34,548 nt of DNA from the NCBI RefSeq assembly GCF_004305975.1, contig NZ_BHZI01000020.1:1-34548 (forward strand). The letters run 5' to 3'. Source of the stretch: Streptomyces otsuchiensis. GTDB lineage: Bacteria; Actinomycetota; Actinomycetes; Streptomycetales; Streptomycetaceae. Within the stretch, counting starts at the first letter, position 1. Every line of letters begins with the position of its first letter. Position numbers and translations under genes: made by a program. A model generated the notes under the pieces. The model was not told where the DNA came from, did no database searches, and worked only from the letters and a program-made list of their open reading frames with translations. This document shows, piece after piece, positions 1 through 2,977 of this stretch.

Positions 1-2070
1 GTCGGCCTGGCCGAGGGCGAGTTGGGCGTCGCCCAGGTAGAGCAGCCAGAAGCCTTCGGGGGCGTGGTCGCGGAGTGCCAGCCCGATCTCGACGGCCTCC
101 TCGGCTGCTTCCAGCGCGGCGTGGGTGTCACCGCGTTCGAGCAGGAGGGCGCTGCGCATGCGCAGGACGTTGCCCACGCTGCGCTGGTTGCCGGCTTGCC
201 GGTGGAGCTCCAGCGCCTCGTCGAGCGGGGCGGCCGCCTCGTCGATCCGTCCCGCCTCCAGCAGCGCCTCGGCCAGATTGGCCCGCGCCACCGCCTCCCA
301 GTGCGCGTCACCGAGGGCGCGAAAGATCTCTGCTGAATCGCTGAGACGAGACTCCGCGTCCGTCAGCCGACGGGAGCGGAGGTCGATCAGAGCCAGGGCA
401 TTGAGCGCGGACGCCTCGCCCTCGCGGATTCCGAGTTCACGCCAGATCGTCAGAGCTTCCGCGTTGAACCGTTCCGCCGTCCGGTGCTCGTTGATGCCGC
501 GGAGTGAGAGGCCCATGGTCTCCAGCAGGCCGGCCTCTCCCACGCGGTCGCCCAGGCGGCGTGCCGCACGGAGACCGACCTCGGCCGTGGCCAGCCACTC
601 CGTCTCCGGTGCGGACGGGCCTCGCGTGCTCCAGAGCACCGCGGCAAGCTGCCAGGCCTGCCGGTCCATCCGGGCTTTCTCGGCGGCACTCACGGCGGCC
701 ATCAGGTTGCGCTGCTCCCGTTCGCACCAGTCCATCGCCTGGTCGTAGTCCGAGAAGGTCTGAGGAGTCACGGCTTCGTCCGGGGGCCCGAGGCCGATCT
801 GCTCTTCCGGGGCACGCCATTTCCGTGCGTTGTCCGCGGTGAACAGGTACCAGTCGACGACTCGGCGGAGTGCCGCCGTGCGACCGTCCGCGGTTTCGTG
901 GGTGCGGGCTGTCTCGTGGGCGTAGGCACGCAGCAGGTCGTGGAACTCGAACCGGTCCGGAGCCGTCTGCTCCAGCAGGTGGGCGCCGACCAGATCGTCG
1001 AGAAGCCGGCGCGCGTGGCGGGTGTTGACGTCCGCGAGTGCGGTCACGGCCCCGAGTCCTATGTCCGACCCCGGGTGCGTCCCGAGAAGCCGGAAGAGGC
1101 GTGCGCTGTCCGGGGACAGCGCACGGTAGGACCACGCGAACACGGACCGCACGGCCTCACTGTCCTGTCCGCCGCCCGTGCTCAGGGCGTCCCAGAGCGC
1201 TGACTCGTCACGCAGTTGTTCGATGAGGTCATCCAGATCCATGTAGGGGTGGCTCGCGGCGCGTTCCGCGGCGACGCGCAGCGCGAGCGGTAGATGGGCG
1301 CAGAGGCGGGCCAGCTCGGCGATCTTCTCGGTGGCGTCCTCCGTGCGGTAGCCGGAGGTGACGGCACGGATCAGCGCGACGGCCTCCGGCTCCGGGAGCG
1401 TGCCCAGCGTGATGCGACGCGCGCCGTCGTGGACTGCCAGACCGGACATGCGGCTGCGGCTGGTCACCAGCACCAGACAGCCCGGGTGGCCCGGCAGGAG
1501 CGGTCTGATCTGGGCGGCCGATGCCGCGTTGTCGAGGACGATGAGCATGCTCCGGCCGGCCAGAACGCTCCGGAACAGCGCCGCGGCGGAGTCGGCATCC
1601 GCGGGCACGCGCTCGGTGGACACGCCCAGCGCCGTGAGGAAGCCGTACAGAGCCGCCCAGGTGGTGACCGCCTGGCCCGGGTCGTAGCCGCGGAGGTTCA
1701 CATAGAGCTGCCCCTCGGGGAAACGGGCTTTGGCCCGGTGAGCCCAGTGCAGGGCGAGCGCGGTCTTACCCGCCCCGGCCGTGCCGGCGATCACGCAGAC
1801 GTCCACTACCGTCGTGTCGCCGTCCTCGGTGGCGAGGATGGCGTTGAGGTGTCGGAGTTCGGACGTCCTGTTGACGAAACCGCGTATGTCACGGGGGAGT
1901 TGCTGCGGCGTCCAGTGAGCGGCCGGAGGCTCCGGTGACAACGACGGCTGGTGGAAGTGGATGCCGCCGCTGACCCGGCCCGCCTGTACGACGTCCCGGG
2001 AGGTGCCGCCTCCGATCTCGTTGGCCTTCGCTTCCTCCGTCGGCCCGCCGGAGTCCTGTGCGTCACTCAT
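1..2070 (-). CDS. STAND (NB-ARC) ATPase with helical repeats, partial
   Basis: The frame is open from an ATG at 2070 to the left edge (690 codons); the C-terminus is outside the window. Residues 24-42 read SRDVVQAGRVSGGIHFHQP, a short glycine- and valine-rich motif before the ATPase. The NB-ARC core has Walker A GTAGAGKT at 96-103, hydrophobic-D Walker B (MLIVLDN) near 175-181, and an LPLAL motif near 260-264. From about residue 420 the protein is alpha-helical with TPR-like A/L/E repeats. STAND proteins are nucleotide-driven switches that oligomerise on sensing a ligand; Streptomyces relatives include AfsR-like regulators and NLR-like defence proteins. No DNA-binding domain is seen at the N-terminus, so a classical SARP regulator is unlikely. 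The start directly abuts the TAG of the DUF6879 gene, so translation is probably coupled. The ligand and output are unknown. Confidence 0.85.
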   Translation of the reverse strand, partial: MSDAQDSGGPTEEAKANEIGGGTSRDVVQAGRVSGGIHFHQPSLSPEPPAAHWTPQQLPRDIRGFVNRTSELRHLNAILATEDGDTTVVDVCVIAGTAGAGKTALALHWAHRAKARFPEGQLYVNLRGYDPGQAVTTWAALYGFLTALGVSTERVPADADSAAALFRSVLAGRSMLIVLDNAASAAQIRPLLPGHPGCLVLVTSRSRMSGLAVHDGARRITLGTLPEPEAVALIRAVTSGYRTEDATEKIAELARLCAHLPLALRVAAERAASHPYMDLDDLIEQLRDESALWDALSTGGGQDSEAVRSVFAWSYRALSPDSARLFRLLGTHPGSDIGLGAVTALADVNTRHARRLLDDLVGAHLLEQTAPDRFEFHDLLRAYAHETARTHETADGRTAALRRVVDWYLFTADNARKWRAPEEQIGLGPPDEAVTPQTFSDYDQAMDWCEREQRNLMAAVSAAEKARMDRQAWQLAAVLWSTRGPSAPETEWLATAEVGLRAARRLGDRVGEAGLLETMGLSLRGINEHRTAERFNAEALTIWRELGIREGEASALNALALIDLRSRRLTDAESRLSDSAEIFRALGDAHWEAVARANLAEALLEAGRIDEAAAPLDEALELHRQAGNQRSVGNVLRMRSALLLERGDTHAALEAAEEAVEIGLALRDHAPEGFWLLYLGDAQLALGQAD

Positions 2071-2715
2071 CTATCGCGCACTCGTGTTCGGCGGAGGCAG
2101 GTGGGCGACCTCGCGGTCGAAGAATGACAGCACGTCCTCGCCCGAGTGGTAGAGGTCCCGGATGAAACCGCCCCAGCGAGCGACCGTCGCCGTGCTCGTG
2201 AACCGCGTCGCTCCGTCCAGCGCCCCCCGGTCGTCGTAGGCGACCTGGTAGAGCGCACGGTCGCCGAGGACCACGACCTCCGGCAGGGCGCCCGCGGTCT
2301 CGAGGTCACCCAGCGCTTCGGCGGCTACGACGCGGATGTGGTTACCGGCTGCCGCCTGTACGCGGAACGAGTGCAGTTCCCACTGCAGGTAGGGCGTGAG
2401 CGGCTTCTCCACGACACGCACCCGGTGGAACGGAGTGCCGCGTTCCCGGTCCTGCGCGGTCTCCTCCGCCAGGTCGGCGAAGCACTCCTGGTGCTGACGC
2501 AGGGCGTCCTCCCAGCGGCCGGCCCGGAAGGACCGCCAGGAGTCGCCTTCGTCCTCGAACTCCTGGGCTCGCTCGAACTTCCAGGACTGCTGGTGGCGCA
2601 GCCCTGCCTGGACGGCCCGGAACTCCCGGCGATAGGCGTCGGTCGTCAGCCGTTCGCCTTCGGACGGGGGCAGGAGCAGCCGTCCCGCGTCGGCCCAGCC
2701 GGCGTGCTCAGTCAT
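2071..2715 (-). CDS. DUF6879 family protein
   Basis: This 214-aa soluble protein starts with ATG at 2715, 8 bp inside the end of the upstream 89-aa gene, and stops immediately before the STAND gene. Family-type segments are visible: WKFERAQEFEDEGDSW near the N-terminal third, RVRVVEKPLTPYLQWELHSF in the middle, and a PEVVVLGD...LYQVAYDDRG stretch toward the C-terminus. I recognise this as the DUF6879 pattern, abundant in Streptomyces and often encoded beside helix-turn-helix/DUF397 regulator pairs. Its biochemical function is not established. No membrane segment or signal peptide is present. The tight gene overlaps suggest it works with the 89-aa protein and the STAND ATPase. Confidence 0.8.
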   Translation of the reverse strand: MTEHAGWADAGRLLLPPSEGERLTTDAYRREFRAVQAGLRHQQSWKFERAQEFEDEGDSWRSFRAGRWEDALRQHQECFADLAEETAQDRERGTPFHRVRVVEKPLTPYLQWELHSFRVQAAAGNHIRVVAAEALGDLETAGALPEVVVLGDRALYQVAYDDRGALDGATRFTSTATVARWGGFIRDLYHSGEDVLSFFDREVAHLPPPNTSAR

Positions 2716-2977
2716 CGGCGATGTCCGGCTTCGCCGATCGCAGCATGGTGCCCGGGACGACGACGAGTCGCTCGTCGGTCGCGATGGTGACGTCCGGCGG
2801 GAGCCGGGCGGCGTAGGAGTCGGTGAGGTCACGGCCGATGACGGCGATGTCCCCGTTGTCCAGCTCCCAGATGTCCGGGCAGCCGTCGCGGCCGTTGGTG
2901 CTGCCGAGCTGTGCGGCGGACATCCCGAGCCGCCGCGCGAACCCCGCGGACGGATCGGCTTCCCACGGACGATCCAC
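2708..2977 (-). CDS. small conserved hypothetical protein upstream of DUF6879
   Basis: This is an 89-aa protein with a GTG start at 2977, preceded by a GGGAGGGG ribosome site about nine bases upstream; an in-frame TGA just upstream rules out a longer form. The N-terminal third (GFARRLGMSAAQLG) is helical. It is followed by a compact, probably beta-rich part (DIWELDNGDIAVIGRDLTD, then DERLVVVPGTMLRSAKPDI). Similar small proteins beside DUF6879 genes are common in Streptomyces genomes as I recall them, but I know of no function. It is the first gene of the unit and overlaps the next gene by 8 bp. A role as partner or regulator of the DUF6879 protein is inference from position only. Confidence 0.7.
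   Translation of the reverse strand: MDRPWEADPSAGFARRLGMSAAQLGSTNGRDGCPDIWELDNGDIAVIGRDLTDSYAARLPPDVTIATDERLVVVPGTMLRSAKPDIADD

Follow-up and report, generated by a model that had tools for sequence, protein, structure and literature searches.

At the start of contig NZ_BHZI01000020.1 of Streptomyces otsuchiensis, three coupled minus-strand genes encode a small protein (here SMALL), a DUF6879 protein and an NLR-like STAND protein. The contig, C20 among the 752 contigs of this 6.15 Mb genome, was analysed over its entire 34,548 nucleotides and is the window referred to below; L, C and G numbers are our labels for loci, contigs and genomes. We interpret these genes as the receptor arm of Bell/NLR amyloid-type signalling, to which SMALL and DUF6879 are added as an input or gating module, and hold this reading with slightly more confidence than doubt. 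Amyloid-type NLR signalling is supported by the sequence evidence, while we infer that the SMALL-DUF6879 pair is its input or gating subunit. The features concerned are:

2708..2977, minus strand: SMALL, 89 residues, from a GTG start at 2977 to a TGA stop ending at 2708; first gene of the unit
2708..2715, minus strand: 8 base pairs shared by the end of SMALL and the beginning of DUF6879
2071..2715, minus strand: DUF6879 protein (PF21806), 214 residues, from ATG at 2715 to TAG at 2071
1..2070, minus strand: NLR-like STAND protein, 690 residues, ATG at 2070, C-terminus cut by the start of the contig
1951..1992, minus strand: core of the NLR N-terminal motif, residues 27-40, VVQAGRVSGGIHFH; same motif in 56/57 NLRs
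1945-2001, minus strand: NLR residues 24-42, SRDVVQAGRVSGGIHFHQP
1126..1806, minus strand: NB-ARC domain (PF00931), residues 89-315, including the P-loop
1..477, minus strand: TPR region (TPR_12, TPR_MalT), from about residue 532, C-terminus missing

These coordinates confirm what an earlier inspection of the letters (the sequence-only reading) had described: three genes coupled by an 8 base pair overlap and a directly abutting stop and start, the last encoding the motif at residues 24-42, an NB-ARC domain and helical repeats. The overlap goes beyond chance, since the same 8 base pairs recur in 55 of 67 loci; the exact abutment of the NLR ATG on the DUF6879 stop is not a conserved spacing among the loci compared, using a simple rule for start codons. 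The NLR frame is open to base 1, and about 110 C-terminal residues, as estimated from homologues, lie outside the window with whatever follows them. In Pfam, the DUF6879 protein matches PF21806 (E 3e-33, 114.9 bits against a cut-off of 23.9), and the NLR scores 26.8 bits against NB-ARC, whose cut-off is 23.5, and 52.3 bits against TPR_12 (cut-off 30.1; E 7e-14), with a TPR_MalT match at residues 532-688 that stays below the TPR_MalT cut-off. SMALL matched no Pfam, NCBIfam or PADLOC family.

The N-terminal motif is strongly conserved. It stands ahead of the P-loop in 56 of the 57 NLRs read from the 80 loci described below, and goes beyond chance, because its V-Q-A, G-G and H-F-H columns are 93-100% identical in these 56 proteins; residues 15 away on each side reach only about 1 to 1.5 bits. 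The search expression required Q-A and allowed only a few residues each in place of V, the first G and F, which makes these columns partly circular; the unconstrained ones are the second G (93%) and the two H (98% and 96%). The core is best written VQA(G/R), with Ala third in all 56 NLRs and Gly fourth in 52%. The RHIM core tetrad is (I/V)-Q-(I/L/V)-G, which the window's VQAG does not match because of its Ala at the third place (the Q-A that the search demanded and 56/57 NLRs contain). Nor does the fungal PP core, given as NxGxQxGxN in PMC9815663, occur in NLR residues 20-42. A published BASS3 effector peptide, VDLRDAKGVQVGDGNVQINRF (PMC8086366), has little in common with the motif beyond V-Q-x-G, and we dropped an assignment to BASS3 or RHIM. 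The sequence-only reading therefore stands as regards motif conservation, and as regards the gene co-occurrence and matched effector described below, while its label "RHIM/PP-like" does not. We regard the motif as a probable amyloid-type "handshake" motif.

The trio itself recurs in many genomes. A named collection contained 303 relatives of SMALL, and the best 80, ranked by likeness to the window's SMALL, comprise 55 trios, 16 SMALL-DUF6879 pairs without an NLR (two at a contig end), three cases of SMALL with an NLR or NLR remnant and six of SMALL alone. Within the genus, whose genome set overlaps with the named collection so that their counts are not independent, the SMALL profile matches 64 of 150 genomes. 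The 29 strongest places there, classed by eye and by profile, hold 14 trios, one SMALL-NLR combination, eight pairs with a second receptor set and six lone, decayed or other cases. Seen from the NLR, 20 neighbourhoods of its relatives in the genus include 12 full trios, one with SMALL only and seven without both partners. Neither of the two sequence-based outcomes that would have refuted the sequence-only reading, an unconserved motif or a lack of co-occurrence, was thus found. At one of the 12 trios (L058; G055:C3, about 8.86 Mb), the NLR is interrupted by two genes resembling transposase parts, and at others, judged by eye, the NLR is reduced to remnants beside SMALL.

The effector with a matching C-terminal motif that the sequence-only reading had envisaged was located both in the window's genome and next to or near NLRs elsewhere. 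In three Nocardia loci (L192, L201 and L203), the next gene after the NLR encodes a protein of about 115-117 residues ending in a like motif, and in two Streptomyces loci (L054 and L055), a same-strand effector of 121-124 residues is separated from the NLR by one opposite-strand gene. These five effectors and the L146 protein share N-x-x-x-GTV-x-(x)-N-x-(V/I)QARD(V/I)-x-G-x-I-x-F. They matched no Pfam family, and our term "Bell-like" rests on their length, alignment and look. At E 0.01, a profile of the six proteins has matches in 49 of the 150 genus genomes, partly via NLR motifs alone. The window's genome yields a single one, at C267:6144-6554 (E 6e-5). The gene there (C267:6069-6554) encodes 161 residues, with HNTISGGTQHGPVIQADRISGGVSFH followed by a Pro-rich tail.

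The motif of this effector, VIQADRISGGVSFH, scores 55 against the NLR motif VVQAGRVSGGIHFH (BLOSUM62, 14 residues), more than any other effector tail compared. The best other tail scores 38 among 30 loci from the six-protein profile search (L276 gave no tail; L262 and L277 gave non-effector-looking stretches, scoring 8 and 4, and were kept in the list) and 39 among 29 other loci with relatives of the effector (L344 and L325 yielded no tail). When the motif was shuffled twenty times, the top score in 116 kb of DNA from the window and its genome was 41. The C267 effector and the window's NLR thus look matched within one genome, with their genes apart. Across the genus, a domain plus motif profile match occurs in 8/12 trio genomes vs 34/138 others (p 0.004), and in 6/10 vs 33/137 (p 0.02) with the seed genomes removed, where classes were assigned by hand from profile-match tables and the p values ignore kinship. 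Two further pattern hits in the window's genome were discarded, one (C31) lying in no called gene and the other (C196) antisense to a called gene.

Other arrangements of Bell-like proteins and NLRs were also seen. The window's genome encodes a second Bell-like protein on contig C244 (L145:3071-4176) with a YQSAGDQHFH tail, which scores 20 against the window motif; its gene overlaps a 240-residue gene without a Pfam family, and no NLR was called on this contig. A single 839-residue protein at L148:5163-7682 combines a Bell-like domain, the motif and an NLR-type NTPase, and several other genomes have long open frames across Bell-like matches. The Nocardia alni trio is followed not by a gene for the small effector but by one for a second, larger protein of NLR-like appearance (L222:10435-13707). 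At L051:7420-9437, a helix-turn-helix-looking regulator of 220 residues ends in GASGVGFQFGGSNNTQHIHQ and the next, NLR-like gene starts with GSSGIAFQLGGSHNTQHIHQ; these appear to be matched motifs, and the effector side may bind DNA.

SMALL and DUF6879 are found with other partners too, and our comparisons indicate, as a new observation, that they behave as a plug-in pair across receptor and output sets. At eight of the 29 genus places, the pair lies beside a Bell-like gene and a TPR gene with a second matched motif: the Bell-like gene ends in RVYQAGRDQHI-x-ER (in L137, one of the eight, this tail was not seen), and the TPR gene starts with GRVYQ(S/A)-x-GDQHI-x-EHHH. In the one such receptor searched with Pfam (L132), the TPRs are above cut-off and NB-ARC just below it (22.1 vs 23.5 bits). 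A DUF6082-type membrane protein follows the pair in 8 of 12 named loci without an NLR (by pattern; by Pfam in L214 and L220). Most of 29 DUF6879 loci, judged by eye, have an XRE-type gene following distant relatives of the pair (a crude pattern gives 22), and SMALL is distantly similar to the small CPT-type protein of these cassettes (hhalign probability 89, E 2e-6, 58 columns).

We placed these sets on a DUF6879 tree whose bootstrap was not settled and whose 87 rows cover six actinomycete families (Streptomycetaceae, Nocardiaceae, Nocardiopsidaceae, Pseudonocardiaceae, Thermomonosporaceae and Streptosporangiaceae). The 10 XRE-type rows form one group and the eight second-receptor rows another. 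Four DUF6082 rows group with L225 and with L214, L217, L223 and L248, which were labelled "other" on the tree and later shown to be DUF6082-type (100/98). The NLR rows do not form one group and require 5 changes. It is possible, and to us somewhat less than an even bet, that SMALL-DUF6879 is a general actinomycete input module with interchangeable outputs (XRE-type, VQA(G/R) NLR, second-motif Bell/receptor pair and DUF6082), and the sensing subunit of bacterial amyloid signalosomes via the TPR region. That DUF6879 belongs to an undescribed module, as had been suggested from the letters, is supported by this context, and its function is what we infer.

Of 20 sampled loci (L150-L169), most have a shorter relative of SMALL (about 78 residues) close to a DUF6082-like gene, at what appears to be a single conserved site in the chromosome; neither DUF6879 nor an NLR was labelled at these loci (Pfam on one locus).

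Gene fusions tie the pair together and to the receptor. DUF6879, the motif and the NLR are fused in Kitasatospora sp. MAA19 (a frame of 1058 residues) and on a Kitasatospora cathayae plasmid (1014 residues, WP_333493574.1), and SMALL is fused to DUF6879 in Actinosynnema (291 residues). All three contain DUF6879 according to Pfam, which also finds NB-ARC and TPR in both Kitasatospora proteins. A 255-residue fusion of a small CPT-type stretch with DUF6879 (L138:9576-10343) means that such fusions occur also in the XRE-type branch.

DUF6879 also co-varies with the NLR's TPR region. Over 50 trio loci, the DUF6879-TPR distance correlation (r 0.90) exceeds that between the NLR's own TPR and NB-ARC (0.81). 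With corrected distances in the same loci, the partial r is 0.62 for DUF6879-TPR vs 0.08 for DUF6879-NB-ARC, the former being the highest of the pairs tested, and in 29 less redundant loci these two pairs give r 0.80 vs 0.59. This suggests that DUF6879 may contact the TPR region. If the gene order were instead kept merely by block inheritance or transfer, with no physical link between SMALL-DUF6879 and the NLR, all distances would correlate through common descent alone, as they do, and the mere 8 output changes on the DUF6879 tree (labels as used there) would also fit. We consider this very improbable, as it leaves the fusions, the retained 8 base pair overlap and the association of the pair with two receptor sets of unlike motifs unexplained.

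The XRE-type cassettes raise another alternative, in which SMALL-DUF6879 is itself an output, such as an effector pair of enzymatic or toxin-antitoxin-like nature that the NLR restrains or sets free, giving the unit two outputs. For XRE-DUF397 pairs, a role as toxin-antitoxin systems and as recruits of conflict systems has been proposed (PMC7159879), and the XRE neighbourhood of distant relatives of our pair is the same setting. Several charged residues of DUF6879 are moreover invariant across 60 aligned rows. We nevertheless think this unlikely. SMALL was ruled out as a DUF397 relative (hhalign probability 0.31 against seven sequences judged DUF397 by eye), and neither protein of the pair has a credible match to solved structures or named families. 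We also rejected DUF6879 and SMALL as motif-bearing effectors, as neither the window proteins nor the relatives inspected end in such a motif or begin with one, and the pair also persists next to sets with their own Bell-like effector.

The surroundings of the trio bear on a further alternative. Its setting looks like core chromosome and not a defence island: inward lies an NlpC/P60 gene (Pfam search), and the window includes what we take to be a porphobilinogen deaminase gene, an HtpX-like protease gene and the nuo operon. These housekeeping-like neighbours would suit an AfsR-like developmental or antibiotic regulator, in which the pair would detect a metabolite for the NLR to relay, with no part in immunity; the XRE-type genes beside the pair's relatives would suit it as well. 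The NLR does align to AfsR over positions 273-910 of profile NF053617, at 358 bits against a cut-off of 1430. Nothing matched the N-terminal 272 positions, so the NLR has no AfsR-type DNA-binding part, and we rejected it as an AfsR/SARP regulator. Killing also fits the conserved motif and matched effectors better, and the NLR remnants beside SMALL in several loci suggest frequent loss. A regulator of this kind seems to us similarly unlikely.

Several observations weigh against the receptor-arm reading. Besides the housekeeping look of the trio's neighbours, no convincing PADLOC-DB 2.0.0 anti-phage model was found for the trio proteins; two weak matches both concern the NLR (P-loop stretch and TPRs), with none on the other proteins. 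One trio NLR (L227) is without the motif and has AKAITQYGMIYGGMVH in its place. The own-genome effector is not adjacent to the NLR, and C267 flanks it with other genes, none called as an NLR. A matched-motif open reading frame was found in only 3 of the 80 named loci. In the reverse test, this effector scores the NLR motif of L196 higher and that of L209 equally, leaving the window tied 2nd-3rd of 76 NLR motifs. It may be the survivor of another effector/NLR pair, because its relatives can have their own downstream NLR (a P-loop lies downstream in 4/30 loci). The effector enrichment is modest, with two of the eight genomes (G003 and G146) having supplied the profile, and the effector's wider family is not enriched (6/12 vs 54/138, p 0.33). 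For co-variation, the gap shrinks to 0.69 vs 0.62 at 75 columns each, with DUF6879-TPR higher in 47/60 resamplings. Our confidence was lowered slightly because the effector enrichment is partly seeded and one second-set NB-ARC match falls below cut-off.

Under the receptor-arm reading, SMALL and DUF6879 would be made together and form a complex that docks on the TPR region of the NLR, sensing or gating there as activator or inhibitor. Once a presumed trigger released the gate, the NB-ARC protein would oligomerise and gather many flexible N-terminal motifs, which, by analogy with HET-S/NWD2, could fold into a cross-beta template. This template would convert the C-terminal motif of a Bell-like effector that matches it; in the window's genome, the likeliest candidate is the product of the orphan gene C267:6069-6554. 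Finally, the effector's helical-looking N-terminal domain may act at the membrane, so that the compartment is killed or arrested.

We also searched beyond the contig for the missing end of the NLR. The C-terminus of a homologous NLR matched a single place in this genome, where contig C224 ends on the right (61 residues, 49% identity). This end codes for 69 final residues of an NLR-like protein; a convergent gene comes next, and no effector. C224 carries an mqnC-looking gene; mqnC lies near nuo in Streptomyces, and since the window has the nuo operon, this supports, without proving, that C224 adjoins the window. A promoter and terminator scan, using a consensus that fits low-GC sigma-70 sites, found nothing. 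No phage records were found for SMALL or DUF6879.

NLRs with amyloid-type motifs have been described in bacteria, but we know of no account of what they sense. SMALL-DUF6879 is a concrete candidate for this step, being fused to the receptor, translated with it and co-varying with its TPR region, and the conservation of the trio points to an undescribed input unit for bacterial amyloid-type cell-death signalling. The pair's exchange among outputs would allow experiments to address input and output separately. The trio also gives a reason to study DUF6879, which was matched in 52/61 sampled Streptomyces genomes; no paper in our literature search names it or DUF6082. Titles and abstract openings of the papers that our searches on bacterial amyloid NLR signalling gave do not describe the trio, although the founding BASS paper or its supplement may mention it.

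The closest known systems are the BASS systems, in which Bell effectors are combined with NLRs in bacteria (PMC7889193, PMC8086366, PMC12261475 and PMC9815663). As there, the trio NLR has a nucleotide-binding domain and helical repeats, its N-terminal motif is matched by the C-terminal motif of a small helical-looking effector, and its hosts are multicellular actinomycetes. Unlike them, the trio has SMALL and DUF6879 as conserved partners and an effector that is mostly non-adjacent, the two genes being adjacent in three Nocardia loci and not in the window's genome. The trio would work like the BASS systems, for which ten profiles have been published. The logic proposed for fungal HET-S/NWD2 and PP (PMC9815663) and for mammalian RHIM, in which a receptor motif templates an effector motif, is also alike, whereas their sequence cores differ from ours, with no homology shown. 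Ternary STAND/EAD conflict systems (PMC7159879, PMC8195603) are similarly modular, their receptor, adaptor and effector being joined through homotypic links. The link in the trio is instead a short motif; general Pfam, NCBIfam and PADLOC scans, which were not aimed at effector-associated domains, suggested none. Triggering by a partner has been reported for a bacterial NLR-related protein (PMC12169576). In the XRE-DUF397 pairs of Streptomyces (PMC10364602, PMC6262351), the output is a DNA-binding protein, whereas that of the trio is an NLR and SMALL is not DUF397. The cassettes of a small protein, DUF6879 and an XRE-type gene are like the trio in combining a small protein and DUF6879 with a third, output-like gene.

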